A stretch of DNA of 42,321 nucleotides from a virus (IMGVR_UViG_3300031746_000055:1-42321), one strand, 5' to 3'; shown: positions 364 to 33,296, counted from the stretch's first letter. Notes: generated by a model not told the origin, from the sequence alone. A program made the numbers and translations.

Positions 364-1125
364 ATGTTCAAATTATTATGGCTTATTTTTATAGACGAAT
401 TCGGCGGTTTAGGAATTACGAGGGCATCGTTAACGAGTAGTATCTGCGAGCGCACTGGAGATGAATCTTTGGATGCCGCCGTGAAGGTAAACCGCCTTAT
501 CAATGAACAAGGTCCCTTATTCTGTCAACTTACTAACTGGCCTTTTCTGCGTAGTGATATATCTTTTAGCATAACCTCATCTACCTATACATACTCTGGG
601 GCAAGTTACCTGCCGACTACTTTTAAGAAAGTTACTGCCGCATTTCTTCTTGATGGCTCGGACAGATACCCATTGACCGAAGTAAGCATAGGAGAGGCCT
701 ATCAATGGGGCAATCCTGATGATAGTTCCGGCAGACCGAATGAGTTCTGCATTACTAGGATTGAGAGTGGATATTGGGAAATCCAATTTAATCGCACGCC
801 AGATGCTACCTACACGGTTTATTTGGAGATAGAACTGCAATGGGCTGACCTGACTGCATCCACAAGCGAGACCGTAATCACTAAGGAATACTTTCCGGCA
901 TTTACGCACTTTGTGAGTATGGCACGGTTTATTCAACAGGGGGATACCGCAGGTTATCTATTGGCAGAAAAGCAATGGTGGAATCCACTTATGCCTAAAG
1001 GCACGATATTAGGAACGATATTGGCGAATTTATCTTCGCCCTTGCGGAGAAAATCGGTAAAGATGGATGCCGGATATACAAAACCACTTTCCCCGAATTC
1101 AGGGGATTATCAAGATGGAGCATAA
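364..1125 (+). CDS. Putative head-tail adaptor protein with prepilin-like N-terminal leader
   Basis: This 253-residue protein looks like the podovirus-type head-to-tail adaptors that dock on the portal: a helical N-terminal half, then a beta-rich part with the recurring phage pattern of 'fkkV..a.l.dg..ryPLteis..e...' and a 'y.vyl.iel.w' strand. It precedes the nozzle gene directly, with its stop abutting the next ATG. An AGGAGG ribosome site sits just upstream of the ATG at 364. Residues 1-14 (MFKLLWLIFIDEFG) form a hydrophobic leader ending D-E-F-G, shared in pattern with four other proteins of this genome. The leader is an extension I would not expect in an adaptor. Function is inferred from context and sequence pattern; the leader is seen directly. 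Confidence 0.6.
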   Translation: MFKLLWLIFIDEFGGLGITRASLTSSICERTGDESLDAAVKVNRLINEQGPLFCQLTNWPFLRSDISFSITSSTYTYSGASYLPTTFKKVTAAFLLDGSDRYPLTEVSIGEAYQWGNPDDSSGRPNEFCITRIESGYWEIQFNRTPDATYTVYLEIELQWADLTASTSETVITKEYFPAFTHFVSMARFIQQGDTAGYLLAEKQWWNPLMPKGTILGTILANLSSPLRRKSVKMDAGYTKPLSPNSGDYQDGA

Positions 1126-2676
1126 ATGATAAGTCGGGATTACATACCTCTATTACTAGCGGAAAACTTCCTTGGTGTAGATTGTGCGAATTCCGAAGAA
1201 AATAAACACATAAGTAGTTGGGATGATGATTCTCTTGATGTCTTTAGTGATCCACAAGGAGCATTAGGAAGCAGACCGGGTTTTACTGCCCTAACTACTG
1301 CTTCCATCGGCTCGGCAACCGCCTGGTGTGGATTTTACCAGTTCGACAAGCAGGCAGGTGGTTCTACCACATCTTATTATGTAGGTGGTGGAGCTAACGG
1401 AAAACTTTACGATTACACAGGTGGAGCATATGTAAACATATTCTCCGGTCTGACTACCACAAAGGATGATGATAAGAGATATGCCTTCTTTACTCTTGAT
1501 AATACCGTGATGATATGTTGCGATGAAGATCCGCCAGTAGTTTATGTGGGTTCAGGTTCAGCCACTACTTTTGCCACAAGTGTAACTGCCGACTGGGGCC
1601 TTGAATGGCAGAGATATGGATGGCTTCATTCTACTGTTGATCCGCGCCTGTTATATTATTGCACCACTTTAGGCGATATAGACAGTGCTTATACATCATT
1701 TCTAAACTTTGATGACGACCAAGGCAAACTCACCGGTGGTTGCAAACAGGGTGATGATATGATTGTAGGCAAGGAATGGTCGCTATTCAGGGTGCAGTAT
1801 CGCGGAACAACGCCTTTATTCAAGAAATACAGGATACCCTCCAAGATTGGCCCGGTAAACTACTGGACGATGAAAGAACTCCCTGATGGCAGGGTAGTAT
1901 TCCTCGCTCCTGACTTTAACTTCTATATGGTAGCAGGGGATAATGTAACATCTTGTGGAGACAATATCCGCAAATATGTTCAGGATGGGGTAAATGCTCG
2001 GCTCAAATATGCTGTATCGGGGCTTCTCCACAACCGTTCGCAATACTGGTGCAGTTTTACATATATATCTGGGGCAACGCAAAATGACCGGACTGTGGTA
2101 ATGGATTGGTCTCGGCCATATCAGGATAAATGGGGCAAGACGCAATTCCCCTGGTTTATCTATTCCATAGGCGCGAATTGCTTCGCCGAGATGAATATAT
2201 CAGGTAAGGCTTGGCTTTATCACGGTGGATATGCGGGTCTGATACACAAGGATGATACTGGCACAAATGATAATGGCGCAGTATTCAAGCCGACTTATGT
2301 ATCCAAGAAGATATCGCATGGCGATCCGACTTTAGAAAAAAAGTATGAGAACATAAACCTTGCACTTGCCAGAAAAGGCGATTGGGATTTGAATATCCAG
2401 ATAGTCTGCGATGGAAATGCGGCAACAGAAAAGACCATATCGCAGAATTTACTTTCAGGTTTGGGTTACCAATCCCTATTTGATGTAGCGAAATTTGATG
2501 AGGATTACTTCTCAAGCGAAAGCGACATGGACATAACGAGGGAGATACGCAGGCAGGGAAAAGTTATACAAGTGAGGATGGGATCTACTGGCTTGGATGA
2601 GGCGTGGTTGGTTTATCATTATAGTTTGTTAAGTCGTCCGATACAAAGAGGAATAAGAGTTAGAGAAAGCAGTTAA
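1126..2676 (+). CDS. Putative tail nozzle / head-closure protein, propeller-like
   Basis: The 516-residue product resembles the large propeller-type tail nozzle or stabilisation proteins of podoviruses. Near the N-terminus there is a 'dpqGALGSRPGFTAL' segment, followed by repeated W/Y-rich strands such as YVGGGANGKLYDY, VVFLAPDFNFYMV and AWLYHGGYAGLIHKDD that suggest blades. It lies immediately after the adaptor and before the fibre genes, the usual place for a tail-tube component. It has neither the DERG-type leader nor a signal peptide. No catalytic motif is visible. The fold assignment is inference; a generic tail tubular protein is the alternative. Confidence 0.6.
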   Translation: MISRDYIPLLLAENFLGVDCANSEENKHISSWDDDSLDVFSDPQGALGSRPGFTALTTASIGSATAWCGFYQFDKQAGGSTTSYYVGGGANGKLYDYTGGAYVNIFSGLTTTKDDDKRYAFFTLDNTVMICCDEDPPVVYVGSGSATTFATSVTADWGLEWQRYGWLHSTVDPRLLYYCTTLGDIDSAYTSFLNFDDDQGKLTGGCKQGDDMIVGKEWSLFRVQYRGTTPLFKKYRIPSKIGPVNYWTMKELPDGRVVFLAPDFNFYMVAGDNVTSCGDNIRKYVQDGVNARLKYAVSGLLHNRSQYWCSFTYISGATQNDRTVVMDWSRPYQDKWGKTQFPWFIYSIGANCFAEMNISGKAWLYHGGYAGLIHKDDTGTNDNGAVFKPTYVSKKISHGDPTLEKKYENINLALARKGDWDLNIQIVCDGNAATEKTISQNLLSGLGYQSLFDVAKFDEDYFSSESDMDITREIRRQGKVIQVRMGSTGLDEAWLVYHYSLLSRPIQRGIRVRESS

Positions 2677-2678
2677 AA

Positions 2679-3032
2679 ATGTTTAAACATAAATATCACG
2701 AACCTAAAGATTGTCCACTTTGCGAAAAGATAATCTATATATTTGACAAGCGAAATAAGCCCATAGAATTAAATGATGATGGGGTGTTATTTGCGGCCTT
2801 ATTCAACGATAACTCAAATGCTGAATTTGCTATCTGCAAAGATTGCTTTGCTACCCTAAATCAAGAAAAGTTAGACAAAATTATGTCAGATGAAATTTAC
2901 ACCTGGGGTATGCAGATTATAAATACTCCACTTAGTTTATTGGAATTTAGCAAGCAGTTACAGTGGTTCATAAATACGGCAGTTCATCTTAAAATAGTCA
3001 AACACGCAAGGACAAAAGAGGAGTTAGGATAA
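2679..3032 (+). CDS. Small protein with two CxxC pairs, probably zinc-binding
   Basis: The 117-residue product has C-P-L-C near residue 12 and C-K-D-C near residue 51, spaced like a treble-clef or zinc ribbon. The C-terminal half is helical. It sits between the nozzle and a fibre gene, three bases after the nozzle stop. The ribosome site is only a weak GAGAAAG-type stretch. Function unknown; it may be a chaperone or regulator encoded inside the tail operon. Confidence 0.65.
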   Translation: MFKHKYHEPKDCPLCEKIIYIFDKRNKPIELNDDGVLFAALFNDNSNAEFAICKDCFATLNQEKLDKIMSDEIYTWGMQIINTPLSLLEFSKQLQWFINTAVHLKIVKHARTKEELG

Positions 3033-3956
3033 GTGGATTTAAAACTTAACTTAGGCGAACTAAAAACTCCGCAGGATATATTAAAACTTACATCAACTAT
3101 ATCCATATTAGCTGATGAACTCGATACGATTATAACCACATCCGCGCCCAATGGAAGCATATCTGCAAGAGAAGGCCGAAGATGTCTTTATAAAAATGGT
3201 GCTAATTATGAAGTTTGGGTTAATGTAGACGGCGGAACCGTCTGGCAACAGATAGACGCTGGCATATCCATACCATTAACTTATATAGATACCGACGGTG
3301 CACTTGCCGCTAATTCTGATGTCAAGGTAGCCTCGCAAAAGGCCACAAAGACCTATGTGGACACAAAAGTTCCAGTTCCCCTGACTACCGCCAAAGGTGG
3401 CACAGGTTCTACCGCAAATGCCAATGCGGCAAATGGAGCAGTAATATTAGGTGCTGATGGAAAAATTCCTATACTGGATGGAAGCCAATTGACTGGAATT
3501 CCTGTTCTTTCCAATGTTATCTTTGAATGGTATGGCATTGATACAATAGATACTGCTAGTAATCCAGATGGGGGAGAAATAACAAGTGCGAGTTTAGCAG
3601 ATAATACAACGGTAGCACTTTATAGGTATATAAGAATAGAACAATCAACTTATAGGACAATTTTGACAGGTAGATTTAAGAAGATTGCAGGAATATCTAC
3701 TATAACTATTCAGGCAAAATTATGGTCAACCAGCACTGACGCTGATAAAGAGGCGGTTTTATTAGTAGATGTCGGCGGGCAATCCAATACAGTAAAAACT
3801 ATTACCTCTATCACTCCCACTTGGGTAACGAGTGCAGATATAGATGTATCAAGTTTAACCAATGGGACTGTTTACGATATTACCATACAACTTAAAAGCG
3901 AATATTCTACTGGTTCTTGGGTTAATTGCAGTGCAGTAGTTTTAATAGCAAGTTAA
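3033..3956 (+). CDS. Tail fibre protein
   Basis: The 307-residue protein starts with GTG, preceded by a GAGGAG ribosome site within the end of the upstream gene. It carries phage fibre hallmarks: a segment D-V-K-V-A-S-Q-K-A-T-K-T-Y-V-D-T followed by PLTTAKGGTGSTANANAANG and 'GADGKIPILDGSQLTGI', common in attachment-proximal parts of fibres. The C-terminal ~130 residues are beta-rich and probably form a receptor-facing or trimerising domain. It has no leader or signal peptide, unlike the fibres at 36287-40861. Confidence 0.8.
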   Translation: MDLKLNLGELKTPQDILKLTSTISILADELDTIITTSAPNGSISAREGRRCLYKNGANYEVWVNVDGGTVWQQIDAGISIPLTYIDTDGALAANSDVKVASQKATKTYVDTKVPVPLTTAKGGTGSTANANAANGAVILGADGKIPILDGSQLTGIPVLSNVIFEWYGIDTIDTASNPDGGEITSASLADNTTVALYRYIRIEQSTYRTILTGRFKKIAGISTITIQAKLWSTSTDADKEAVLLVDVGGQSNTVKTITSITPTWVTSADIDVSSLTNGTVYDITIQLKSEYSTGSWVNCSAVVLIAS

Positions 3957-3972
3957 TTTTAAAGGAGGATTT

Positions 3973-4650
3973 ATGAACTTATTATTAAAGATTTTATTCG
4001 ATGAAGAAGGTGGAACACTTGCGATTACGAGAAAAACAGCGAATACTCTAATAACGGCGGCGGGATTTAACACCAACTATGGTGAAATCGAGGCCGTCGT
4101 CAATGGTGATATTGACGCGACAAACCTCGAGGACGATGCTGTAACGGCCGCAAAGTTAAACTCCGATGTAGTGCGCGCCAATTATGGCCTGCTTCAACAT
4201 ACCGACGGAACTTTATATGTGGATGTATATGGTGTAATGGTAAACGCTGGGACTAACGGTGTGGAATGGGGTAGGGCAGGTGATATGCTTTTATCATCCT
4301 CTACAACTACTCCCGACGGATTTACTGATGTATCCACTACCTATGCGGATAAATTTATAAGAATATCGGCAACTGCTTTATCAACTGGCGGAGCGAATAC
4401 CCATACACATACAGCAACTACCGATAGCCACACTTTAACTGCTGATGAAATGCCAGCGCATACGCATACAGTAGGGGGAAGTCAAAGCACTGGCCCGGGA
4501 GGCAATTTAGATATTGGTGCTTACGCCCTTAGTCTTACTCATACTAGTTCTTCAGCAGGTGGAGGTGGCGGACATACACATACTGTAACTACTGCGGCGG
4601 GAGATAATATCCCGGCGTATTTAACGCTCAAGATGTATCAAAAATCATAA
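3973..4650 (+). CDS. Collar-like tail fibre tip with HxH motifs and prepilin-like leader
   Basis: The 225-residue protein has a strong AAAGGAGG ribosome site. Residues 1-13 (MNLLLKILFDEEG) form a leader of the DERG type. The following G-x-x-x-ITR resembles the adaptor at 364, so the two share about 20 N-terminal residues in pattern. The middle has the 'LEDDAVTAAKLNSDVV' repeat common in phage fibres. The C-terminal part is rich in H-x-H (THTHT, PAHTHT, GHTHT) with a GGGGG stretch and a final 'GDNIPAYLTLKMYQKS', typical of tail-collar tips that bind metal ions along the trimer axis. Fibre assignment is strong; the leader's role is inference. Confidence 0.8.
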   Translation: MNLLLKILFDEEGGTLAITRKTANTLITAAGFNTNYGEIEAVVNGDIDATNLEDDAVTAAKLNSDVVRANYGLLQHTDGTLYVDVYGVMVNAGTNGVEWGRAGDMLLSSSTTTPDGFTDVSTTYADKFIRISATALSTGGANTHTHTATTDSHTLTADEMPAHTHTVGGSQSTGPGGNLDIGAYALSLTHTSSSAGGGGGHTHTVTTAAGDNIPAYLTLKMYQKS

Positions 4651-4658
4651 GGAGAAAT

Positions 4659-4997
4659 ATGAAAAATCTTTTAACCCTTTTAAAACCAAAATATCAAAGA
4701 CAACAGGATTTAAAAGAAAGAATATTGAAAAATAAAGAGAGTGTGTTGGATGCACTTTCAGAGAATATAAAAGGCGCAAGAGCTTGTCCGATAATTTTAG
4801 GGCAGAAATGTTTGGGGAGTTTTTGCGAATTATTTATGGAATTAAAATCCATAACTGATGAAGGGAAAGAAACTAAATTCTGGCGATGTGTTTTTGTGGA
4901 AACTCCACTTTTAATTATTGAACTTAATAATAATATAATAAGATTAACGGAATTATTAACAAAGGAGACGAAAAATGAAACCATCAAAAATACTTAA
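4659..4997 (+). CDS. Conserved-looking small phage protein with C-x7-C-x4-C
   Basis: The 112-residue product has a charged helical N-terminus, then a segment CPIILGQKCLGSFCELF with three cysteines, followed by an F-W-R-C segment. Similar short phage proteins occur near tail genes, but I cannot name the function. It has a GGAGAAAT ribosome site, and its last 23 bases overlap the next gene, indicating translational coupling. Confidence 0.6.
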   Translation: MKNLLTLLKPKYQRQQDLKERILKNKESVLDALSENIKGARACPIILGQKCLGSFCELFMELKSITDEGKETKFWRCVFVETPLLIIELNNNIIRLTELLTKETKNETIKNT

Positions 4998-5778
4998 TTT
5001 ATTATGGCAGATATTAAAGGATGAAAGAGGATGGGTATGGCCAGCAGTTGCGGCAATTGGTTCAACTGTATTAGGAGCTCTATCCAAGAAAGGCGAACAA
5101 GAGGAGGAGATATACGATCCTTATGCAGGTTTACGTGGCAAATGGCAGGAATGGCTTACTCCCAAGCTCGGCACATCCACCCCCTATAAGGATAATCCGG
5201 CTTTCAATCTTGAGCAACCTGCGGTAGAGAGTGCCGCAGAAAAGAATATTCTCGGATATTTCCAAAATCCTAATACCAATGTTGCCGATTATTCAGAAGC
5301 GACAAAGAAATACTCCGAGGCCAGCAAGGCCAGTATGGCGGAAACTTATGCTGAGGAAAAAAAGAAAACCCAAGATATGTATAACCGGCTTGGGCTTGTT
5401 TCTTCAACGCCTGGGCTTACCGCGCAGAGTGATTTATTTAGAAAACAAGCAACAGAACAAAATCTTTTTGATACCGAATTAACATATAAAAACCTTGATA
5501 GGCAGTTACAGGCGATGGGGCTTGATGTAACCCAGTTAAACAGTATGCTCGGCCAGGCAGGAACTATGGCTGGGGCTCAGACGGGCAGGACACAGTGGAG
5601 CAAGACAATGTCTATGGTTGACTTAGAAAGGATGTTATCTGAGGAGATGGGCTATGGCAGTCAAGCCGCAAGCATATTGGGTGGCAATGCGCCAGAACGG
5701 ACAGTAACAACTCAAGGTGAAGATTGGATGAGTATACTTAGTAAACTTATTGGTTCTTATGGTATAGGTTCAAAATAA
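4975..5778 (+). CDS. Putative internal virion/ejection protein with prepilin-like leader and TM segment
   Basis: The 267-residue protein begins with a leader ending L-K-D-E-R-G at residue 19, followed by a hydrophobic stretch (WVWPAVAAIGSTVLGAL). That order, a charged 'KDERG' then a hydrophobic segment, is the arrangement of Flp/Tad prepilins. The rest is Q/A-rich and helical (EATKKYSEASKASMAETYAEE, QLNSMLGQAGTMAGAQTGR), like podovirus internal proteins ejected with the DNA. A GGAGACGAAAA ribosome site precedes the ATG. It opens the ejection block 4975-10005. It is the best prepilin mimic of the five leader proteins. Confidence 0.6.
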   Translation: MKPSKILNLLWQILKDERGWVWPAVAAIGSTVLGALSKKGEQEEEIYDPYAGLRGKWQEWLTPKLGTSTPYKDNPAFNLEQPAVESAAEKNILGYFQNPNTNVADYSEATKKYSEASKASMAETYAEEKKKTQDMYNRLGLVSSTPGLTAQSDLFRKQATEQNLFDTELTYKNLDRQLQAMGLDVTQLNSMLGQAGTMAGAQTGRTQWSKTMSMVDLERMLSEEMGYGSQAASILGGNAPERTVTTQGEDWMSILSKLIGSYGIGSK

Positions 5779-5799
5779 CACTTTTAAGCGGAGGTTAAT

Positions 5800-6705: not shown

Positions 6706-6708
6706 TCT

Positions 6709-9700: not shown

Positions 9701-10005
9701 ATTCTACCATAAAGAAATATTCACAAGAAGGACGAGTGAATGAAGCAACAAAATTGCAATTAAAATATCCTGAATACAAGTTTTATTCTGGGGTTAATAG
9801 AGTATCTAAAATGCTTTCTGATTTGCGAGATTATCAGGATTTTATAATTAAATCTAATAAACCTGAACAGGAAAAAAGAGTATTGTTGCAAAAAATAGAT
9901 AAACAGATGGTTGCGGTTGCCCAAAAGGCAAATGAGGTAATTGGAAAACCTAAAATATTTGAAGGGAAGATAAAAAAATCAATTATACCGAATTTATTTG
10001 ATTAG
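6709..10005 (+). CDS. Giant ejection/internal virion protein, LPD38-like
   Basis: The 1098-residue protein ends the structural block. Its central and C-terminal part (about residues 460-950) has the pattern of the large polyvalent protein associated domain 38: 'NPIESMIKNTYRIMDIAERN', 'RTGATITPEFMVRNPIRDQW', 'FFNAGIQGTDKLVR' and 'PRWQKDLFWIFK'. A glycine/alanine-rich stretch near residues 145-210 could be membrane-active. The very ends carry short linear repeats: IADLFD at residues 4-9, IPNLF at 26-30 and IPNLFD at 1093-1098. By analogy with podoviral internal proteins it probably forms or protects a DNA conduit. No transglycosylase motif is seen. The ribosome site is weak, so coupling to the upstream gene is likely. 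Confidence 0.65.
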   Translation: MPVIADLFDKKVDISIPKTSKVPKVIPNLFKETETILPQFTGQPKTSFLQEALIKPVKTFYGGTVKASANLADTLDFYSDKIAKIIKQPETKNSIFEYLRDNWGAYGDKLQKEGISNKLVKEIYSGLGEASFEVPKLMALGPQGLVISGAAEGGKTGGVKGAVTGAVTGGLTKGILGGLNVLPTPIKLPTAFGVGAVTTPGDIEKKVAGGAVFTGLSLGKSPTMQEFKEAQKYSPLVKGFQKVLPFETREGLYQNFVNRFQSIENIVDKAKNLGAKILPGEDPALRARTYLGIGQKVKTVLEDKTYKINPDGTFTITGEGLKPILDNYDKVSLEKNRTIRDKDLIDYLIAQRTIKDLQRPKSEFTTENIVTPEQVKKAQDTIGNLGKKYGTNIVFLDQTATRLYEYQKRVLSTLVDSGNLSQQQYNDILTKNPNYVPFDRVIEGVDTAGIPVSKNRFTGARSPIKRIKGSELEIHNPIESMIKNTYRIMDIAERNTVAKGVAKLGKVLPEDISPVKVRMQPITIGKFTEGEPNVIFRPSQFKPKGNVIEYFDNGKRSYIEVTPNLYQAMTGLNETSTNILTKIMSIPAQTLRTGATITPEFMVRNPIRDQWTAFVQTKLGFKPFVDTSGAIADIMGKSEVYNDWLRSGGAYSGFVELSRPNLQKQLDILKGNSNLLSKLNIITKAQDISQLFEQATRLATYKAGIKKGLSPVEAGFGSREATVDFGRRGAKTKDINSVIAFFNAGIQGTDKLVRTAKEDPVGFVAKGIASITIPSLITYILNRNDPEYKELPRWQKDLFWIFKVKDTFVRIPKPFAYGQFFGSLPERFFEYLDTQDPKAFEGLKQSLYDSLTPASGDPTGSLMATGIKPLIENATNWSFFRQRPIVPEGKERLLPKEQYAKYTSEIAKAIGNILNYSPAKLENLVQGWFGGTGRYALEAGDIGIKGFRKFIGQPMAPKRLTELADIPLIKGFVTRPALSQSESVNQFYQNRDRITQSYSTIKKYSQEGRVNEATKLQLKYPEYKFYSGVNRVSKMLSDLRDYQDFIIKSNKPEQEKRVLLQKIDKQMVAVAQKANEVIGKPKIFEGKIKKSIIPNLFD

Positions 10006-10136
10006 AAATCTGGAGAGGCGGGTTCTGGATTGCCACCGCGATGTTTTATTATCCAATTATTATCCATATATTTTTGAAAGCCGATGGCTATTGTAAAAAC
10101 TATTATCCAAAATAATAATTTCCAACGCAATTTCAT
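10002..10136 (-). CDS. Possible 44-residue minus-strand membrane peptide
   Basis: On the complement an ATG at 10136 opens a 44-residue frame, with an N-terminal K-R-W-K charge cluster, one transmembrane segment (LLFWIIVFTIAIGF) and a hydrophilic tail ending PEPASPDF. The stop overlaps the end of the giant ejection gene. Its ribosome site is weak (AAAGAACG). It lies downstream of the minus-strand gene at 10184-10387, so the two could be one short operon. Coding status is uncertain. Confidence 0.4.
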   Translation of the reverse strand: MKLRWKLLFWIIVFTIAIGFQKYMDNNWIIKHRGGNPEPASPDF

Positions 10137-12488: not shown

Positions 12489-12920
12489 ATGGAAAAACAA
12501 GCATTCACAAGTAGGCGAGATTTTTTATTTAATAAACCTACCCCAGAATGCCAAAAGCGTGAGCTGAGGCCGCCTAAAGGACAAAATCTCGCAGGTGTGA
12601 ATGATTCTGGGGTTTCTTATTCTAAATACCGGCTAAATGCTATCAGGAATTATATGTATATTTATATTGCTTGGTGTATTACTCATCCAAATAATCCCAA
12701 GAAATTTAGAGAGATCCGTTGTGAAAAATGTGGAATCTATGAGGGATTAGAATTACATCATACAAAATATGCTCCTAAACAAATGGTAACAATTGAAGAT
12801 ATAAAAATTCTTTGTAATAAGTGCCATCGCAATGCAAGGAAATCTTTATCAATGTTAAGAACTATTTTTAAAAACGGAAAACGATATTGTATAGCAAGAA
12901 ATTTTAAATTTGAATATTAG
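12489..12920 (+). CDS. HNH endonuclease-like protein
   Basis: The 143-residue protein has an HNH nuclease signature in its C-terminal half: C-E-K-C, then L-E-L-H-H-T-K-Y, then L-C-N-K-C-H-R-N, giving the zinc pairs and the catalytic His. It is probably a free-standing homing-type or accessory nuclease. The first ~55 residues have low-complexity composition and their DNA holds a 10-bp perfect inverted repeat (12540-12549/12604-12613). The true start may therefore be a later ATG such as 12655. Confidence 0.7.
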   Translation: MEKQAFTSRRDFLFNKPTPECQKRELRPPKGQNLAGVNDSGVSYSKYRLNAIRNYMYIYIAWCITHPNNPKKFREIRCEKCGIYEGLELHHTKYAPKQMVTIEDIKILCNKCHRNARKSLSMLRTIFKNGKRYCIARNFKFEY

Positions 12921-12929
12921 GAGACCCCC

Positions 12930-13448
12930 ATGAAACTCTATATAGATTTCATCGAGCCCAAATCCCCCTTGCCGAAATTTCTCCCGTTTTTCTTCGGTGT
13001 ATTAGTAATGTTAACGATTATCTTAATGGTTACGATGGCAAGGGCGACCGAGCCTTTATTTATCGCACAATCCCAAATCGGTTTAGGTGAGTTAGGCGCT
13101 AATAATCAAGGGCAATATGTTAAAGAATATCTTAATGGACAAGAAAACTTACCTTGGTGCGCAGGATTTATCTCTTATTGTTTTAAGAAAGCAAATTATC
13201 ATTTGCCTTATTTATTAAGGGCAAAAAGTTATCTTAAAATCGGCACAAAAGTTACCAACCCAAAGGCAGGAGATTTGATTATATTCTCTCGGAAAAACGG
13301 AGGGCATATCGCAATTATAGAAAAGGTTACCAAAGATACCATTATCACCATAGAAGGAAATTTGGGCGAGTATCCTTCCAAAGTTAAACGAGTAATCTAC
13401 AAAAGAAATCATATTAAAAACTTATTAGCATTTGTGAGGATAAAATGA
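12930..13448 (+). CDS. CHAP-type endolysin with N-terminal membrane segment
   Basis: The 172-residue protein is a cell-wall hydrolase of the CHAP/amidase kind. Catalytic Cys77 lies in L-P-W-C-A-G-F-I-S-Y-C, His126 in G-G-H-I-A-I-I-E, and an E-G-N-L-G follows near residue 142. Residues about 17-37 are a hydrophobic segment ending A-R-A, either a cleavable signal or a signal-arrest-release anchor, so export would be independent of a holin. An AGGAGACC ribosome site precedes the ATG. It is encoded far from the other lysis-type genes at 40909-42321. Confidence 0.8.
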   Translation: MKLYIDFIEPKSPLPKFLPFFFGVLVMLTIILMVTMARATEPLFIAQSQIGLGELGANNQGQYVKEYLNGQENLPWCAGFISYCFKKANYHLPYLLRAKSYLKIGTKVTNPKAGDLIIFSRKNGGHIAIIEKVTKDTIITIEGNLGEYPSKVKRVIYKRNHIKNLLAFVRIK

Positions 13449-22031: not shown

Positions 22032-24338
22032 ATGGTTAGTATTTTAATCCTTTGCTATGGACAAATCACCTATACCAAACAATGCCTAAAAAGCCTCTTT
22101 GAGTTCACTTCGCAAGTAAAGACGCCTTTTGAGGCAGTCGTAGTGGACAATGGGTCGGTTGATGGCACAAGAGAATATCTGCAAGGTCTTGAGAGTGCAG
22201 GTAAGATTAAGGCGATATATAATCAGGACAATAGGGGTTTCCCGGCAGCCAACAATCAAGCGGCCAAGGTTGCCACAGGTGAATACCTATGTTTGCTTAA
22301 TAACGACACAATCCTTACTGATGGTTGGCTAGAAAAACTTCTTCGTTGCATAAAATCAGATAGTCAACTTGCCGCAGTGGGCCCCTATACTTCGTTTTCT
22401 TCTGGTTATCAACAAGTGCATCCACAACCTAATTATCGGGGAGAAGAAGAATTAAAGAAATATGCGGAGAAATTTAATGGAGAAGAGAAGTATGTGGATT
22501 TTCTGGTGTTCTTTTGCGTACTGATAAAGCGCAAGATATGGGATGAGATGGGTGGTCTGGATGAGGACTTTGGCCAGGGGTGCTTCGAGGACAATCTTTT
22601 TAATTATCGTTGTCTTGAGAAAGGTTACAAACTCAAAGTAGCCGGGGATTGTTTTATTCATCACTATGCTGGGATTACATTTAACACGAAAGACCCTAAG
22701 AAACTCAAAGAATATGCCTCGCTTATGGCACGCAACCAGAAGATATTCCTAAAGAAGATAGAGAGATATGAAACGGTATCTTTATGTATGATTGTAAGCG
22801 ACCAAGAAAAACCGGAAACCCTAAAGAAATGCTTGGATAGTATCTATGAGTGGGTGGATGAGATTTGTATTGTATTTAATTATAAATGGTTTAAGAATAT
22901 ATGGAAATTAAAGATGTTTAAACAACTTGTGGATAGTTATCGTAATATAATTATTATACCTACTAAAGACAAATTGCTATTGGAAAGTTCTAACATATCA
23001 GGTAACGATGTGTTGACAGGAAATGAAGAAGAGTTATTCTTTGGTTATAAATTTAGAACCCAAATCGAAACTCAATATTTTAAATTCACTAACTTCTCCG
23101 ATATGCGCAACAAATCCCTTGCTATGGCTACAAGTCGGTATGTTCTTTGGCTTGACTGTGATGATAAAATGATATCTCCTGCTAGTATTCGAGACCTCAT
23201 ACTCAAGAATCCACACATAGATGTGTTTAAGGTTAAGATATTGTCTTATACCGAAATCAAGACCATAGAAACTATCATCCACAACCGGCTATTCCGTAGG
23301 GTGAAAGACGGCAAAACCCCCTATTGGGTTAATTCTTGCCACGAAGATATTTCCTACTCGATGAATGAATTAAAATATACCTACGCCATAACTGACCTGA
23401 CTATAAAGCATTTCGGCTATCTAAACCCAAAGGCCTGGTTAGCCAAGAACAAGCGTAACCTGAAACTTATGCTTGAGGATATAGCCGAGATAAAAAATGA
23501 AATAGAAAAATTTCCTGTAGTAATTGAAGAGATTAAAGAAAAACGAGAAGGCCGCCTAAGTATGATTTACTATGGCTTAGTGAATGCCTATATCATACTA
23601 GCAAGTGTGATGAAGCCTAAGCAGAAACACGATACTCTTGTTCAAGCATTGAATACAACCGATGAATGTATTAAATTACTCAAGAACGAAGATCCGCTTA
23701 TGGCAAAGATGTGGATGCTACGCGGAACGGTCTGTATGGATGCTGGGCAGGAACTAGCGGCCAAGCAGTCATATCACAAGGCTTATGACGAATTCAAGCA
23801 GCCAGAAGCAGGAATAAATTTATCTCACATATACCTTGGTGAAAAGAAGTGGAATAAGGTGATAGAGATACTTGATGAGATAAACGCCAAATACAAGGGG
23901 GCATACCCTTTTGGTAGCCTTTCGCATGACCCTGTTCAGATGCACACTTTGCTTTTAGAGAAACTCGGCCATGCCTGGGCAAACAAGGCGCAGGAATGTA
24001 AGTCTAACCCGGAGGCTTTTGACGAATATATGAAGAAAGCCGAAGGCTACTACCGTGAATGCCTGAATATCCGGCCGAAGTTAGAAGTAGCGAATCTGCT
24101 TGTGCAGATACTCTGTAATACAAATCGGGTAGATGAGGCGGCGCATCTTATCATAAAGGCGGTGAATACTTGGCCGGGTTATTTTCTTGGATGGTATCAT
24201 CTGGGAGAATATGAACTCTTAAATAAGAGAAAATACACAGCGCGACTTTTTTACAAAGAAGCGTTAAGGCTCAAGCCGGAGCATAAAGAAAGTTTGAAGA
24301 ATTTGAGGGCGATAGAACAAAATAAGGAGATAAAATAG
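22032..24338 (+). CDS. Tandem GT2 glycosyltransferase with C-terminal TPR region
   Basis: The 768-residue protein has two family-2 glycosyltransferase domains. The first (about 1-220) shows V-V-V-D-N-G-S-V-D-G-T near residue 38, L-L-N-N-D-T near 89 as the metal-binding DxD equivalent, and 'GGLDEDFGQGCFEDNLFNYRC'. The second (about 245-430) begins 'VSLCMIVSDQEKPETLKKCL' and has L-W-L-D-C-D-D near 372. The rest (about 480-760) is TPR-like, with W-x-x-L/G and A-x-x-x-Y-x-x-A helices such as 'AWANKAQECKSNPEAFDEYM'. It probably modifies a surface glycan or a virion protein. The ribosome site is AAAGGAGTATTTA. Confidence 0.9.
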   Translation: MVSILILCYGQITYTKQCLKSLFEFTSQVKTPFEAVVVDNGSVDGTREYLQGLESAGKIKAIYNQDNRGFPAANNQAAKVATGEYLCLLNNDTILTDGWLEKLLRCIKSDSQLAAVGPYTSFSSGYQQVHPQPNYRGEEELKKYAEKFNGEEKYVDFLVFFCVLIKRKIWDEMGGLDEDFGQGCFEDNLFNYRCLEKGYKLKVAGDCFIHHYAGITFNTKDPKKLKEYASLMARNQKIFLKKIERYETVSLCMIVSDQEKPETLKKCLDSIYEWVDEICIVFNYKWFKNIWKLKMFKQLVDSYRNIIIIPTKDKLLLESSNISGNDVLTGNEEELFFGYKFRTQIETQYFKFTNFSDMRNKSLAMATSRYVLWLDCDDKMISPASIRDLILKNPHIDVFKVKILSYTEIKTIETIIHNRLFRRVKDGKTPYWVNSCHEDISYSMNELKYTYAITDLTIKHFGYLNPKAWLAKNKRNLKLMLEDIAEIKNEIEKFPVVIEEIKEKREGRLSMIYYGLVNAYIILASVMKPKQKHDTLVQALNTTDECIKLLKNEDPLMAKMWMLRGTVCMDAGQELAAKQSYHKAYDEFKQPEAGINLSHIYLGEKKWNKVIEILDEINAKYKGAYPFGSLSHDPVQMHTLLLEKLGHAWANKAQECKSNPEAFDEYMKKAEGYYRECLNIRPKLEVANLLVQILCNTNRVDEAAHLIIKAVNTWPGYFLGWYHLGEYELLNKRKYTARLFYKEALRLKPEHKESLKNLRAIEQNKEIK

Positions 24339-25149: not shown

Positions 25150-25183
25150 TTGATTTAATTTATTGGTAATATAGACTTTATAT

Positions 25184-25254: not shown

Positions 25255-25281
25255 TAAATTTATAAGTAATTTATAAGAAAT

Positions 25282-26902: not shown

Positions 26903-26911
26903 GGAGAAGAT

Positions 26912-28921
26912 ATGCAAATGTTGACTGACCCAAAGATAAATGTTGAGAGTTCTGTTGCTAAAAATATCGCCCAGATAATTTGTAAAGAGATTAAGGACTC
27001 TTTCTCCGGAAACGACAAACGCTACAAACTTGCCGAACGCTGTGAACATCAATATCAACAGATGACGAAATGGGATGTGGCGGGCAAGGAATGTGATGTG
27101 CCCTGGAAAGGTGCGTCTAATTACTTCGTAGCCCTGACTGAATGGATAGTAGATGCTATCTGGGCCCGACTTATGAATATATTATTTTCACAACAACCTT
27201 ATATGAAAGCAAAAGGCGTAGAGGCTTCTGATGTAGGCAAACAGGATGCAGTAACCGATTTTACCGATATGACCTTGCGCGAAAAAGTAAAGTTATACGA
27301 AAACTCAAATTTCTTTTTCAAGCAGATGATTAAACTTCCCTTTGCCGTACTTAAGTTTTGCTGGGTGCAGGAATATGACAGGATGATTACAAAAGAAAGT
27401 GCGATTGTATTTGTAAATCAGGCAACGGGTGATCAACAGATGGTGCTTCCCGATGACCCAGAGATACAGATTAAACAGGCAGAGTTTATGATGAACGGCT
27501 ACCAACAATCAGATAATCAGGATGTCTGGGTAGTGCAAGATGAAGAATTGATAAACGCTCCGCAATTAAAATATATCCGCTTTAAGGATTATGTCTATTC
27601 ACAACATGCCAAAAGAAATCAAAGATTATTCTGGGAAGGTGATAGGTTTTGGTTAACCATAAATGAGATGATGCTTAAAGCCCAACAGGAAAAGTTTATC
27701 CAAGATAGCGTAGATAAGGTGAGAACGCAACGCAGAGACTCAACCAAGTCAGGCGTAGATGCAGTGGTAGCAGACAGGGAAAGTTTATTAGAGTGCTTTC
27801 ATTGGTATGGCCGCCTGCCTTTCAATAAGAATAACGAGATAGACTTCCAAGACCAAGAGGCGATTGAGCAAGAAGTATATTGTGTCGTTTCTTTTAAGGA
27901 AGAAGAACTCTTAGAGATAAACCATTGGTACTACCGCAGGAAACCCTGGCCGGATAGGGTCTATATCAGGGGTGAGTTTGAGGAAACAGAGGAATTTGAA
28001 GGTCGCTCAATGTGCCAGAAGTTATTCAAGACACAGACCGAACTGAATGACTTCCATAAGACCCTGATGGATAACGCCTGGCTTGCTATGCAGAAGATAT
28101 TCGTTAAGAAAAGGACACTTACAGGCGAGGACTGGGAGAAACCTACAGTATATCCCGGCGCTATGTGGGAAGAAGATATGGCAGGGGATGTCCGGGTGCT
28201 TGAGGTTGGCGATATTAAGGCAATAGGGATAGAGTTAGAGCAGATGCTTCTTAACTTCGCAGAACGCATAAGCAACATAACCAGTTGGAATGTAGGCACA
28301 AAGCCACAACAAGAAGGCGGAAAGACCACTGCAACGCAATTCTCCGGCATAATTCAGGAAGGCAACATAGGCAGGGAGCCATTATTGCAACGTTGTTATC
28401 TAATCCTAAAGAAAATCTGCCAATGGAATTATGATTATTACTATGAACGTATGCCAGAGGGCCTTGAACGCAGGATTTTAGGCGATACAGGAGAACCGAT
28501 ATTCCCGACACAAGAGAATATGCCTATCTACGCAGAGAAAGGAATAAACCCGACTTGGCGGCAAGATGATATCGCAGGGCAATTTGATTTTAACTGGTCA
28601 GGAACATCGCAGAACTCCGACCAGCAATGGAATATCCTTGTGGCGAATGACCTGATGGACAAATACCTTCCGCATCCGATGATACAGGGCAATATGCTTG
28701 CGACTTGGGAGATACTCAAAGAAGGGCTTATTGCAAGAGGCAAAAAAGACTGGCAGACGATACTACCACCTAAACAGGCGATTATTGCGGAGATGAAAAA
28801 AATGGCTCAAGAGGCACAGGCACAAAGAGGAATGCCGCCAAATAAACTCGGACAGCCAAGTGCGCAACCAAATCCGCAGGTTATAGAGGCGATTAGGCAG
28901 AGGGCAATGCAAGGTGCTTAA
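26912..28921 (+). CDS. Portal protein
   Basis: The 669-residue protein directly follows the large terminase with an AAGGAGAAG ribosome site. It fits the P22/podovirus-like large portal type: an N-terminal 'WDVAGKECDVPWKGASNYFVALTEWIVDAIWARL', a middle wing region, and 'TQTELNDFHKTLMDNAWLAMQK' with 'NFAERISNITSWNVGT' for the stem and clip helices. The C-terminus is P/Q-rich. It forms the dodecameric vertex through which DNA enters. It lacks the DERG-type leader found on the capsid and scaffold. Confidence 0.8.
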   Translation: MQMLTDPKINVESSVAKNIAQIICKEIKDSFSGNDKRYKLAERCEHQYQQMTKWDVAGKECDVPWKGASNYFVALTEWIVDAIWARLMNILFSQQPYMKAKGVEASDVGKQDAVTDFTDMTLREKVKLYENSNFFFKQMIKLPFAVLKFCWVQEYDRMITKESAIVFVNQATGDQQMVLPDDPEIQIKQAEFMMNGYQQSDNQDVWVVQDEELINAPQLKYIRFKDYVYSQHAKRNQRLFWEGDRFWLTINEMMLKAQQEKFIQDSVDKVRTQRRDSTKSGVDAVVADRESLLECFHWYGRLPFNKNNEIDFQDQEAIEQEVYCVVSFKEEELLEINHWYYRRKPWPDRVYIRGEFEETEEFEGRSMCQKLFKTQTELNDFHKTLMDNAWLAMQKIFVKKRTLTGEDWEKPTVYPGAMWEEDMAGDVRVLEVGDIKAIGIELEQMLLNFAERISNITSWNVGTKPQQEGGKTTATQFSGIIQEGNIGREPLLQRCYLILKKICQWNYDYYYERMPEGLERRILGDTGEPIFPTQENMPIYAEKGINPTWRQDDIAGQFDFNWSGTSQNSDQQWNILVANDLMDKYLPHPMIQGNMLATWEILKEGLIARGKKDWQTILPPKQAIIAEMKKMAQEAQAQRGMPPNKLGQPSAQPNPQVIEAIRQRAMQGA

Positions 28922-29093: not shown

Positions 29094-29424
29094 GCCAAAA
29101 CCAAAGGCAACGGACGAACAGATAAAAGTTGAACGCGAGAAGTGGCTTCAGGCAATGTTGGATAAATCTGTGGAAATAAAGCGATTGATTTTATCTAATA
29201 AATCCGGCTGGGCAGAATTCTCTCTATTGATATCTGACTACATAGATAAAGCCAAGAAGCGCAAAGCTATTACTGCACTTGACAGGGCAACCGAGACCGA
29301 CATATTCCAATTAAAATTATTAGACCATGAAATATATATATTGAGTTGGGTATTGAAGATACCAGAGCAGTTTATCGGGCAGGTCGAGGCAGAGATTAAA
29401 AAAGAACGGGAGAAGGAGGAATGA
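29074..29424 (+). CDS. Small helical head-region protein
   Basis: The 116-residue product is helical and charged (LQAMLDKSVEIKRLIL, QFIGQVEAEIKKEREKEE). Position between portal and scaffold suggests a head-assembly or host-takeover role. An AGGGAGAAAA ribosome site precedes the ATG. Family not recognised. Confidence 0.6.
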   Translation: MLGQWFKPKPKATDEQIKVEREKWLQAMLDKSVEIKRLILSNKSGWAEFSLLISDYIDKAKKRKAITALDRATETDIFQLKLLDHEIYILSWVLKIPEQFIGQVEAEIKKEREKEE

Positions 29425-29621
29425 TGGAAGAATTAAATGCATTGGTGTCGAGATTAAAGGCAATTATAACAGAAATTGAAGTTGTGATAGCTGGGCAACC
29501 CAAGAAGAAACTCTCCAAAGAGGAATATCTTGCTAAGTCAGAGGATGAAAGAACCAAGTATGACGCAGAGCAGATGAAAGAAGAACCAAAAGAAGAAGAA
29601 AAAGGAGAAGGAGAGGAATAA
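29421..29621 (+). CDS. Small acidic protein sharing a motif with the scaffold C-terminus
   Basis: The 66-residue product has an N-terminal helix, then K-K-L-S-K-E-E-Y-L-A-K-S at about residues 29-40, then an E/K-rich tail. The same motif, K-L-S-K-E-E-Y-L-A-L-S, lies near the C-terminus of the scaffold-like protein at 31029. Because scaffold C-termini usually bind capsid, this small protein may bind the same site. It overlaps the preceding gene by four bases, with an AGAAGGAGGAATG start. Confidence 0.6.
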   Translation: MMEELNALVSRLKAIITEIEVVIAGQPKKKLSKEEYLAKSEDERTKYDAEQMKEEPKEEEKGEGEE

Positions 29622-29852: not shown

Positions 29853-30008
29853 ATGCCCTTAACTAAATCAGGTCAAACTGTTTTGGGTAATATGAAAAAA
29901 GAATACGGCGAGAAGAAAGGTGAAGATGTATTCTACGCCTCAATCAATAAAGGCAAGGCAGGTTCAAGTGAATGGCATAAAACTAAGTTAGGACAACACC
30001 ACAAATGA
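29853..30008 (+). CDS. 51-residue phage protein with KTKLGQHHK tail
   Basis: The frame has an AAGGAGGTG ribosome site and encodes M-P-L-T-K-S-G-Q-T-V-L-G-N-M-K-K-E-Y-G ... V-F-Y-A-S-I-N-K-G-K, a pattern common to small conserved phage head-region proteins. It ends K-T-K-L-G-Q-H-H-K, almost identical to the tail of the next gene product. Its stop overlaps the next start. Confidence 0.7.
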   Translation: MPLTKSGQTVLGNMKKEYGEKKGEDVFYASINKGKAGSSEWHKTKLGQHHK

Positions 30009-30148
30009 ACGGAATTACTGAAAAGAAAAAACCCATCATTCTCCCAGACGGAACTGAAGTATCACAAGAGGAACTTGACAAAATGGACGATACACACCGA
30101 TGGAGCAAGGATTCCAAGAAAACAAAGTTAGGGCAAAAACATAAATGA
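30005..30148 (+). CDS. 47-residue protein with KTKLGQKHK tail
   Basis: The product begins MNGITEKKKPIILPDGTEVS, is otherwise unlike its upstream neighbour, yet ends with the same R-W-S-K ... K-T-K-L-G-Q-K-H-K tail. It overlaps the preceding gene and the peptidase gene (ATGA). The shared tails suggest a common binding partner or an exchanged C-terminal module. Confidence 0.6.
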   Translation: MNGITEKKKPIILPDGTEVSQEELDKMDDTHRWSKDSKKTKLGQKHK

Positions 30149-30510
30149 CCACTTATATTTTTATCTTACTGATGGCATTTTTCTGTTTCACCGATATTAA
30201 GTATTATACTATCTCGAATTGGGTGATATTACCAGCAATTATTTTAGGTGGGATACTGACAGGTTATTGGTTGCCTACGATTGTTATGTTTTTATTAGGC
30301 GCATTATTATTCAAACAGGAAAGACTCTGCGGTGGTGATGTAAAATTGATGGCGATGGCAGGGGCGTTCTTGGGGGTAAAGGGATTATTCGCTTTTATGT
30401 TATCACGATGTTTTATCTGGCTTTATAGGATTATCAAAAAGGAAACTAGGATATTGCCATATGCACCTTTCATCGGATTGGCGAGTATTCCGTTTTTATG
30501 GATAAGATAG
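30145..30510 (+). CDS. Miniature type IV prepilin peptidase-like protein (A24 family)
   Basis: The 121-residue polytopic membrane protein has both aspartate motifs of A24 aspartyl peptidases: F-T-D-I-K-Y-Y-T-I-S-N with Asp17 after the first helix, and C-G-G-D-V-K-L-M-A-M-A-G-A-F-L-G with Asp65. Its C-terminal L-P-Y-A-P-F-I-G-L-A-S matches the 'iPyGpfia' element of TadV/CpaA-type enzymes. The first Gly of GxGD is Cys here. It is shorter than cellular A24 enzymes and has no N-terminal zinc/methylase domain. It is the only peptidase candidate in the head operon and lies two genes before the scaffold and capsid, both of which carry DERG-type leaders. Host-pilus interference is the alternative. 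Confidence 0.8.
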   Translation: MTTYIFILLMAFFCFTDIKYYTISNWVILPAIILGGILTGYWLPTIVMFLLGALLFKQERLCGGDVKLMAMAGAFLGVKGLFAFMLSRCFIWLYRIIKKETRILPYAPFIGLASIPFLWIR

Positions 30511-30713
30511 AATTACTGATAAAATTATTGAAGGAGTTATTTACTAAACATTATACAGGTCAACTCCGTCTTAACTTCCACGAAGGGAATTTGTCGGAAA
30601 AGATTGAGAAGAAGGACAGTATAAAATTAATTGAAGAATGTATATGTGGACATAATGGAATAACAACTATAAGTCATATAGATTTAATTTCACCACCCGA
30701 AAGGAAGGAGTAA
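30498..30713 (+). CDS. Small protein of unknown function
   Basis: The 71-residue product starts inside the end of the peptidase gene (13-base overlap). The N-terminus is a charged helix and it has two cysteines (ECICGHNG). A possible regulator or partner of the peptidase. Not recognised. Confidence 0.5.
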   Translation: MDKIELLIKLLKELFTKHYTGQLRLNFHEGNLSEKIEKKDSIKLIEECICGHNGITTISHIDLISPPERKE

Positions 30714-30714
30714 A

Positions 30715-30888
30715 ATGGCTAATGCTACTATTGCATCATCTAAAAAAAATAAAGAAGAAGGAACTCTTATCCCAGAATGTTGGGCTATGAAATTTTATGG
30801 TTATACACTATTTGAAATTAAACAATTCATAGATTTTGGAAAGAGTAAAAATTTTGAACCTGAAAAGACAGTATTTGATAGAGAATAA
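30715..30888 (+). CDS. 57-residue protein
   Basis: An AAGGAAGGAG ribosome site precedes this frame (MANATIASSKKNKEEGTLIP...). The product is small with mixed charge, containing W-A-M-K-F-Y-G-Y-T-L-F-E-I-K-Q-F. It is the last gene before the terminator at 30915. Function unknown. Confidence 0.55.
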   Translation: MANATIASSKKNKEEGTLIPECWAMKFYGYTLFEIKQFIDFGKSKNFEPEKTVFDRE

Positions 30889-30914
30889 TTAGTTAGCGCA
30901 CCACCAGTTTACTG

Positions 30915-30957
30915 AAGGCGATAGTTAAGCAGTAATGCTTGATTATCGCCTTTTTTA
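30915..30957 (+). terminator. Nested Rho-independent terminator
   Basis: AAGGCGATA (30915-30923) pairs with TATCGCCTT (30944-30952), followed by T residues. Its loop holds AAGCA-GTAA-TGCTT (30927-30940). It separates the portal/peptidase unit from the scaffold/capsid unit. Confidence 0.8.
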
Positions 30958-31028
30958 TTTGTAACCAAAGGGAATAGCCGTAGCAAATAATGGTATTTGC
31001 GAAAGCACCCTATAAACAGGAGGTAAAG

Positions 31029-31967
31029 ATGTGGTGGAAATTGTTGTGGTCAATAATACTTGACCAAAGAGGAGAAGAACCCGGACTAGGTGCACCTGCT
31101 AGTGGAGAACCAGGAGCAGGAGAACCCCCGGAACCAATAGAACCAGGCGCAGGTGAACCCGGAGTAGGTGGAGAACCACCGGCAACACCCAAGTTTGGGG
31201 AATTCGGCGATGACCCAAATGAAGCCGCAGGAAAGCTTTTTGAAGCCCTTAACAAGACCAAAGGCGACTTTGACAACTTCAAGACTAAGGCTGGATTAAC
31301 CGAGAGGCATCTTGGTTCCATACGCAAAGCTCTTGAAGGATCAGGTATCCGTGCTATTGAAGATGAAACTAATCCTAATGGATATCGTCTTGAAGTAGCC
31401 ACAAAAGAGCCGAGGAAATCGCGCTTCACAGATGAGCACAAAGGATTGTTTGACGCTAAGGTTCTTGATGCAATGCGACTGCTTGTCCAGGATGTCTTTG
31501 ACGAGTCCTATGAAGGCAGAGAACGCATGAGCCAGGAACAGAAGCAGAAGATGCAGCAGTTTATGTCAGAAAAGCAAGAGGTTGAAGAATTGATGACTAG
31601 TTACTTTCCACAACTGGAAGGCCAGTTTAAGGATGGGAAAGCAACTAATCCAAACTTCAACAAAGCTTTCTATGACAGGGCAACTGAGATATGGGAGACC
31701 GATTACCGGAAAAATCCCTTGAAACAGTTGTCAGCTGCTCTGCGTGCTGCCAAAGAGTTAAACATCATACCACAGATGATTGAGGCCGCCAAGAAAGAGG
31801 GTGTAAAGATTGGCAAGGATGGAAAGAAAATCCTTGGCCCAGTCGGCGGAGGCGGTGCTCCTGCAAGTGGCGGTGGTTTCCGAAAGTTAAGCAAGGAGGA
31901 ATACCTTGCATTATCGCCAGAGAAGAAGTTGGAATACGATCAAGCAAATTTAAACCAAAAGAAATAA
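31029..31967 (+). CDS. Putative scaffolding protein with prepilin-like leader
   Basis: The 312-residue protein is placed directly before the capsid. The in-frame ATG at 30990 lacks a ribosome site; AGGAGGTAAAG just before 31029 fixes the start. Residues 1-15 (MWWKLLWSIILDQRG) form the DERG-type leader, followed by a low-complexity G/P/E-rich stretch to about residue 55. A helical region (EQKQKMQQFMSEKQEVEELM) and a C-terminal KLSKEEYLALSPEKK segment follow, the layout of scaffolds with a capsid-binding C-terminus. The unusual features are the leader and the Gly-Pro-Glu repeat. Scaffold function is inferred from position and composition. Confidence 0.65.
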   Translation: MWWKLLWSIILDQRGEEPGLGAPASGEPGAGEPPEPIEPGAGEPGVGGEPPATPKFGEFGDDPNEAAGKLFEALNKTKGDFDNFKTKAGLTERHLGSIRKALEGSGIRAIEDETNPNGYRLEVATKEPRKSRFTDEHKGLFDAKVLDAMRLLVQDVFDESYEGRERMSQEQKQKMQQFMSEKQEVEELMTSYFPQLEGQFKDGKATNPNFNKAFYDRATEIWETDYRKNPLKQLSAALRAAKELNIIPQMIEAAKKEGVKIGKDGKKILGPVGGGGAPASGGGFRKLSKEEYLALSPEKKLEYDQANLNQKK

Positions 31968-31976
31968 GGAGAGTAT

Positions 31977-33296
31977 ATGTTAGAACATCTAAAGAAATTC
32001 TTTCTTGCCATACTCCTTGATATTCGCGGATGGGACACAGAAATGTCGGTAACTGGGATTGCGGAAATTGATGCAGCTATCCCTGAATACTGGGGCGAGG
32101 GGATTATCGCCGACGGAAACCGCGAATCATTCTGGGGTTCATTGGCAGGCAAGGAAGGTTCGTTTATGCCTATTATTGATAAGACAGGCCCCTTAAAGGC
32201 AAAGGGCAACCAGATAACCTTTAATACCATCGAGCAACTGATGGGAACAGGGGTTACTGGTGAAAGTGTCTTGAAAGGCCAAGAAGAGAAACTTGGTATC
32301 GGTTCATTCACGGTAACAGCAGATGTGGTAAGGCATGCAGTCGCTGTAAGTAGAAAATCCACAATACAAGCCAATTTTAATGAAGTCCAGCAAGCACGGA
32401 CTCTACTTAAAGATTGGTGGTCAAGGAAACTTGACAATGATGTGTTCAGTTCCATCATTGACAGCACTGTGGTAAGCACTATCTATGCTAACAGCAAGAC
32501 TTCACAAGCAACTCTTAATACTACATCAGGCGATTACTTTGGGCCGACTGAGATTAATCTCATCCGTATGGCTCTTGTTCGCCAGGGAGCGATTCCCTTG
32601 CGCGTAACCAAGTCAAATGGAAGGACTATCCCGATTTACGGTATTGCTTATGGCGAAATGGAAGAGTATTACCTAAACCAGAATACATCCTTCGTCAATA
32701 CCGTGAAAGAAGCATGGGAGAGATTTAAGGGTTCAAAGGATATGCATCCGTTGTTTGAAGGCGCAGTAGGTATCTTCCGTAATATGGTGCTTTATCCATA
32801 TTACTCATTATTACCGATACCTCAAGGAACACCACTTAGGCCTGAAACAACCCTATCCGCAACACTTGCTACCAATGCTACTTCTGCTGTTGTAGGCGTA
32901 GCTGGTGATTCAAACACAAAGGCAAATTATACGCTTTTCTTTGCCACAACCGGTTCTTTGCAGATAGAAGATGAGATTCTAAGTTATAGTGCAAAGACTG
33001 TTTCAACTTTTACCGTTACCAGAGGTATATCAGGCACAACCGATGTTCAACATGTGGCGGGTACCCTTGTTACACAGAGAAATGTGTCAACGGTAGTTGG
33101 TTTCGGTGCGCAGGCAGTATTCAGGGCTATGCCTGAAGATGTTGAGCCGATTGGCGAGAAAGACGATTATGGCGAACAGATAGGGCTTGGAGTGCGCATC
33201 TATTATGGTCATAAAGTCCGGCCAGACAAACGGCGTGGTAAAGGCGCAAGCCTTGTAATTTGTAAATGTATTTCACCTAACCCAGGAACCATATAA
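31977..33296 (+). CDS. Major capsid protein, N4gp56-like, with leader and inserted domain
   Basis: The 439-residue protein has the N4gp56 major capsid character: 'AGKEGSFMPIIDKTGPLKAKGNQITF', 'LGIGSFTVTADVVRHAVAVSRK', 'SRKLDNDVFSSI' and a C-terminal 'GEQIGLGVRIYYGHKV'. Residues 1-18 (MLEHLKKFFLAILLDIRG) form the DERG-type leader; an AAGGAGAG ribosome site supports this start over the downstream Met23. About residues 289-367 (LRPETTLSATLAT ... GTLVTQRN) look like an inserted beta-sandwich, as seen on many phage virion surfaces. Capsid identity is well supported; leader cleavage is inference. Confidence 0.85.
   Translation: MLEHLKKFFLAILLDIRGWDTEMSVTGIAEIDAAIPEYWGEGIIADGNRESFWGSLAGKEGSFMPIIDKTGPLKAKGNQITFNTIEQLMGTGVTGESVLKGQEEKLGIGSFTVTADVVRHAVAVSRKSTIQANFNEVQQARTLLKDWWSRKLDNDVFSSIIDSTVVSTIYANSKTSQATLNTTSGDYFGPTEINLIRMALVRQGAIPLRVTKSNGRTIPIYGIAYGEMEEYYLNQNTSFVNTVKEAWERFKGSKDMHPLFEGAVGIFRNMVLYPYYSLLPIPQGTPLRPETTLSATLATNATSAVVGVAGDSNTKANYTLFFATTGSLQIEDEILSYSAKTVSTFTVTRGISGTTDVQHVAGTLVTQRNVSTVVGFGAQAVFRAMPEDVEPIGEKDDYGEQIGLGVRIYYGHKVRPDKRRGKGASLVICKCISPNPGTI

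Follow-up and report, generated by a model that had tools for sequence, protein, structure and literature searches.

Prepilin-like leaders on virion proteins and an A24 peptidase gene beside the capsid genes of a short-tailed phage

Five proteins of a short-tailed phage, among them its major capsid protein, begin with short leaders of a common prepilin-like type, and the same genome encodes a prepilin peptidase of the A24 family. The explanation that best accounts for the findings as a whole is that the phage peptidase probably trims virion precursors after the Gly of the leader, at the cytoplasmic face of the membrane. The window, by which we mean the whole stretch of 42,321 nucleotides that was analysed, has an exact 127-base repeat at positions 1–127 and 42195–42321 (end comparison) and thus represents a complete circular phage map of about 42.2 kb. 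The phage appears to have an SU10-like, short-tailed architecture with portal, adaptor, nozzle (1126), needle or fibre, and ejection proteins; the SU10 portal match lies over the cut-off, and the adaptor and TIGR04387 capsid matches lie below theirs. As context, 26 related contigs were gathered by searching viral contigs with the capsid, the peptidase and the portal; some of them are nearly identical, and counts over relatives are therefore not independent. Searches for a host or provirus with capsid and portal profiles gave no match in 84,980 species genomes. Named phages gave no A24 match and no portal match, and their single distant capsid match, Paracoccus phage KLEP18-1, has a capsid protein that lacks a leader.

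A common leader on capsid, scaffold, adaptor, fibre and internal proteins

Leaders at 364, 3973, 4975, 31029 and 31977, each with a strong ribosome site of its own, had been claimed in the initial annotation, and all five are present at these starts, with a good ribosome site before each. All lie on the plus strand and match both the leader pattern and the profile described below; the capsid leader is also defined by alignment. They are the leaders of the adaptor (MFKLLWLIFIDEFG, 364–405, with the predicted cut after codon 14 and G at +1), the tail fibre or needle-like protein (MNLLLKILFDEEG, 3973–4011, +1 G), the internal, ejection-type protein (MKPSKILNLLWQILKDERG, 4975–5031, +1 W), the scaffold (MWWKLLWSIILDQRG, 31029–31073, +1 E) and the major capsid protein (MLEHLKKFFLAILLDIRG, 31977–32030, +1 W). 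A strict leader pattern applied to all six frames of the window matched at these five places only, and no other gene of the window is a strong match. The scaffold start is taken as 31029 instead of the longer open reading frame start at 30990, which has no ribosome site comparable to that at 31029.

The description of all five carriers as virion or assembly proteins is firm for the capsid and holds for the tail-related protein at 3973; it comes from a weak match for the adaptor and from gene order for the scaffold and internal proteins. The capsid protein (31977–33296) is N4-gp56/SU10-like (PF13252, E = 4 × 10−14; phrog_334, E = 2.6 × 10−25), with a match to TIGR04387 (N4-gp56) just below the cut-off (E = 4 × 10−15); its structure model (pLDDT 35) was not used. 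The fibre or needle-like protein (3973–4650) matches the tail protein family phrog_5795 (E = 1.9 × 10−8) and, weakly, Gp10_C. The adaptor (364–1125) was assigned from gene order and an SU10_adaptor match below the curated cut-off (E = 3 × 10−5). No family was matched by the internal protein (4975–5778), assigned from gene order, or by the scaffold (31029–31967), which precedes the capsid gene and has an acidic, Pro- and Gly-rich linker. The C terminus of the scaffold (31887–31967) and a short open reading frame at 29421–29621 have the motif KLSKEEYLA..E...YD in common, possibly a capsid-binding tail present in both proteins.

The leaders are strongly conserved. The scaffold leader occurs in all 20 scaffolds of relatives, the internal-protein leader in all 7 orthologues, and the capsid leader in 19 of 19 capsids (18 of 18, plus L017, in which an insert follows the leader). 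The L017 insert (3600–4379) has a LAGLIDADG open reading frame, divides the capsid gene after the leader-bearing first part, and is probably an intron. Among 48 collected leaders, Gly is found at −1 in every one and Asp at −4 in 41, with hydrophobic residues dominating at −6, −7, −10 and −11; many of the leaders are amphipathic. We constructed a position profile from scaffold and capsid leaders only, leaving out the own leader of each gene that was scored. The three untrained leaders of the window scored 22.5, 19.7 and 29.4, compared with a rate of 3 × 10−5 at which shuffled N termini reach a score of 15. Among the 336 genes of six related genomes, 26 scored at least 8, all of them virion genes, against about 0.3 expected from shuffled N termini; these 26 include the untrained adaptor, fibre and internal proteins and, in one genome (G014), the protein that follows the internal protein. 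Phage genomes commonly have hydrophobic N termini, some of which could end in Gly and be picked by chance from many genes; given this excess, the restriction to virion genes, the Gly shared by all 48 leaders and the conservation in relatives, we reject chance as an explanation and consider its probability negligible.

The differing codons of the leaders had suggested selection at the protein level, and the wider comparison bears this out. The pN/pS ratio of the leader is 0.33 in the capsid gene and 0.35 in the scaffold gene, and in 31 of 57 comparisons the codons for a common leader residue differ; purifying selection therefore acts on the leader peptide. These observations also disfavour a cassette acting at the RNA or codon level, in which a translation-enhancing 5′ element (ribosome site and start codons) would have been copied between highly expressed genes and its peptide removed or tolerated. 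The strong ribosome site at each leader and the differences among orthologues in leader presence are what such a cassette would give, but the same residues are kept with different codons, and we regard this explanation as highly improbable.

The A24 peptidase gene in the head operon

The peptidase gene (30145–30510, plus strand) encodes a protein of 121 amino acids, an A24 prepilin-peptidase-type membrane aspartic protease (PF01478, E = 1 × 10−12; Pfam Peptidase_A24 score of 48.8 bits against a curated cut-off of 26.5). Asp17 and Asp65 are both present, as had been proposed for a phage-encoded enzyme of this type. The family was matched over its cut-off in all 15 relatives, Asp17 and GGD65 are invariant in the peptidase alignment (the second Asp within GxGD/GGD), and the first Asp together with GGD(V/L)KL is kept in 23 of 23 A24 open reading frames. 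The predicted structure has six long helices (pLDDT 88), as expected of a polytopic membrane protein; no match was found when this model was compared with solved prepilin peptidases (Foldseek) or when the protein was searched against PDB sequences. A search of the protein against 50,697 phage records (tblastn) likewise gave no match. One A24 match, L047, was set aside, as reading of its open reading frames suggests Tad-type secretion genes and no phage head genes.

The position of the gene is fixed. It lies between the portal gene, the upstream border of this slot (26912–28921, plus strand; PF23899 SU10_portal, E = 1.3 × 10−8, over the cut-off), and the scaffold gene in all 23 contigs that span the slot, the window included; 10 of these 23 had been reached through the capsid alone. 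The L057 contig ends within the first codons of its A24 gene.

The proposed link between the peptidase and the leaders in related phages stood for capsid and scaffold, which have leaders in every informative relative; leader-like N termini apart from a phage A24 gene were seen only on the internal protein of a cousin (G017) and on single small proteins of two unrelated phages. Two cousins, G017 (40 kb) and L151 (a 15-kb fragment), have no A24 gene, and their capsid and scaffold proteins have no leader; their layout is otherwise that of the clade, with a nozzle and with a signal-peptide protein after the capsid followed by a membrane protein. The internal protein of G017 has a leader-like N terminus, although no A24 gene occurs in the 40-kb contig, and the link is thus not absolute. 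L078 and L118 each have one leader-like protein and no phage A24 gene. Such phages either use a host enzyme or have an N terminus that functions without being cut. When all viral contigs were searched for leaders with a degenerate DNA pattern, 82 stretches were returned, comprising family members, G017, two unrelated phages with one leader-like protein each, and chance matches. One small leader-like protein each was seen just before a portal-like gene in L146 (MWELTKKILKDQRG, 12790–13056) and L148 (MTLWQKIVFILRDQRG, 9877–10131, minus strand), unrelated phages that have no A24 gene. The co-occurrence of peptidase and leaders amounts to one evolutionary event, since it is confined to one clade.

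Likeness to Tad prepilins and the end of the leader

The likeness of the leaders to Tad prepilins was tested (INDEPENDENTLY) with a profile made only from the leaders of nine bacterial Flp pilins (plasmid records). Phage leader genes take 20 of the top 22 ranks among 336 genes (Mann–Whitney P = 4 × 10−17, a value inflated by relatedness among the genes). The leaders had been described as prepilin-like, and this independent profile upholds the Tad/Flp likeness; two other features of prepilins are lacking. Class III signal peptides combine a short, Tad-type leader ending in Gly or Ala with a hydrophobic helix of 20–25 residues after the cut and, often, Glu at +5. The phage leaders end in Gly in 48 of 48 cases and score as Flp leaders. 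A hydrophobic stretch after DERG had been noted in the protein at 4975, where it is indeed present, but the other four leader proteins (capsid, scaffold, adaptor and fibre) have none after the Gly. Glu is found at +5 in 0 of 5 window proteins, the residues there being T, I, A, L and M. The analogy with pilins is therefore incomplete, because the hydrophobic part precedes the predicted cut instead of following it.

The comparison with the TadV/CpaA peptidases and their Flp/Tad substrates yields likenesses on both sides: the phage enzyme consists of an A24 domain without the methylase part and has both Asp residues, and the leaders are short and mostly end in (D/N)-E-x-G. In Caulobacter, the first 14 residues are removed from the Tad prepilin PilA (PMC11067988). 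Unlike in the TadV/CpaA system, the candidate substrates in the phage belong to the virion, with capsid and scaffold among them, and are not pilins, and genes for pilins and the pilus ATPase were not found. Searches of six genomes gave no match to the Flp pilin (PF04964), the pilus secretion ATPase (PF00437) or the Peptidase_S78 prohead protease (PF04586), the S78 type being the one prohead-protease type covered. As none of these genes was found, no other phage substrate is evident for the A24 enzyme. The simplest reading of the gene content is that the phage enzyme would process the virion precursors of the phage itself.

The peptidase could instead act on pilins or other proteins of the host, for superinfection exclusion or receptor change, with the likeness of the leaders arising by coincidence or through use of a host enzyme. 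Pilins are the normal substrates of prepilin peptidases, and the host could have pili of the Tad or type IV kind. However, the gene is held in the head operon in the portal–scaffold interval of all members, and not among variable moron genes, and an independently built profile recognizes the phage leaders as Tad-like; we consider a host target quite unlikely.

Orthologues that have no leader help to define where the leader ends. Four adaptors have the leader followed by G|GLG, and three start as M|GL, their initial Met being aligned with the Gly. Six fibre proteins have a leader; that of G007 has none and starts in the same register as M|AALSMTR. Leader presence thus varies between members on the adaptor and fibre genes. 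Because the leaderless start aligns at the Gly, a cut after this residue would give the same mature start as removal of Met in the leaderless relatives. The exact boundary fits cleavage, and the addition of a leader at a start codon would look alike.

These data also bear on the suggestion that the leaders stay uncleaved and serve as membrane or assembly tags, such as a docking helix shared by the virion proteins that brings them together, with the A24 enzyme having another purpose. Many leaders are amphipathic, as a docking helix would be, and single proteins of phages without an A24 gene have leader-like N termini. However, the A24 gene is always adjacent, capsid and scaffold bear no leader in the two cousins that lack it, the conservation of Gly at −1 and Asp at −4 seems to exceed the needs of a docking helix, and the leader ends where leaderless proteins start. 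An uncleaved tag is therefore unlikely in our assessment, and cleavage of the virion leaders after Gly by the phage enzyme is what the sequence comparisons make likely.

A possible trimming step at the membrane and its relatives

In the proposed mechanism, a borrowed type IV prepilin peptidase would have become a dedicated processing enzyme for phage virion precursors. Capsid and scaffold would always be made as leader-bearing precursors; in some members the same would hold for the adaptor, the fibre or needle, the internal protein and another protein of the ejection region. The leader, of 12–21 hydrophobic or amphipathic residues and nearly always ending in (D/N)-x-x-G, resembles that of a Tad/Flp prepilin and would lie on the cytoplasmic side of the inner membrane, and the six-helix A24 enzyme would cut after the Gly, freeing a soluble protein for assembly. 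The leader would thus act as a removable N-terminal membrane tag. In pilins, the hydrophobic segment that follows the cut stays in the membrane, the reverse of the tag proposed for the phage. As the hydrophobic part precedes the Gly and the soluble part follows it, the short leader would stay behind at the membrane after the cut, and the protein would be set free in the cytoplasm. Prepilin peptidases make their cut on the cytoplasmic side of the membrane and do not depend on any other protein (PMC10191384).

Separate parts of this scheme differ in strength. Binding of virion precursors to the membrane through their leaders is somewhat more likely than not, and use of this binding to gather or time assembly is a more tentative suggestion, towards which we lean slightly less than evenly. 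Cleavage might gather parts at the membrane, prevent premature assembly or merely remove an expression tag. More speculatively, and with a little under an even chance, procapsid assembly would be membrane-tethered: precursors of capsid, scaffold and connector would dock by their leaders, the peptidase would release them as a membrane-embedded maturation protease, and the leader would be a portable address tag moving between virion genes.

Several known systems resemble parts of the proposal. The prohead maturation proteases of HK97, T4 and lambda are likewise encoded beside portal, scaffold and capsid genes, and trim capsid and scaffold precursors as proposed for this phage (PMC3185693). The candidate phage enzyme differs from them in being, by its model, a six-helix membrane aspartic protease; the leader is small and N-terminal and is also found on tail and ejection proteins, and no S78 protease was found. 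These classical proteases are soluble and act inside the prohead. The nearest phage precedent is P22 gp7, from which host OpdA removes the N-terminal 20 residues and in which deletion of the leader has little effect (PMC8402733). Both cases concern a virion protein of a short-tailed phage with a short N-terminal leader, the removal of which is known in P22 and proposed here; P22 uses a host peptidase on one protein, whereas here a phage enzyme would act on up to six proteins with a common leader. Portal, adaptor, nozzle and N4-gp56/SU10-like capsid appear to be shared with SU10/Kuravirus-type podoviruses (PMC9509320), and the A24 protein of the present phage sets it apart in being unmatched in the tblastn search of phage records.

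Prepilin peptidases have known roles in pili, type II secretion, competence and archaeal filaments. Among open-licence papers, we found no report of a prepilin peptidase that is encoded by a phage and acts on its virion proteins. If true, the trimming model would represent a novel form of viral protein processing, joining prepilin peptidase and phage maturation; it would place a membrane step, with named enzyme and sites, in tailed-phage head assembly and extend A24 substrates to proteins of which the mature part is soluble. The model makes predictions at single residues, the Gly and the two Asp.

Elsewhere in the window, a Sec-type signal peptide is found on the protein encoded directly after the capsid gene (33310–33828), which occurs in every relative whose contig reaches the position, and on three fibre-like proteins (36287–38644, 38646–39572 and 39569–40861). 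A protein with a signal peptide lies likewise directly after the capsid in G017 and L151. After the capsid-adjacent protein comes a membrane protein (33874–34905) that is weakly Wzy/O-antigen-ligase-like; similar proteins occur both in the relatives and in the cousins, and it possibly alters the host surface. A large glycosyltransferase–TPR protein (22032–24338) is encoded among the non-structural genes.
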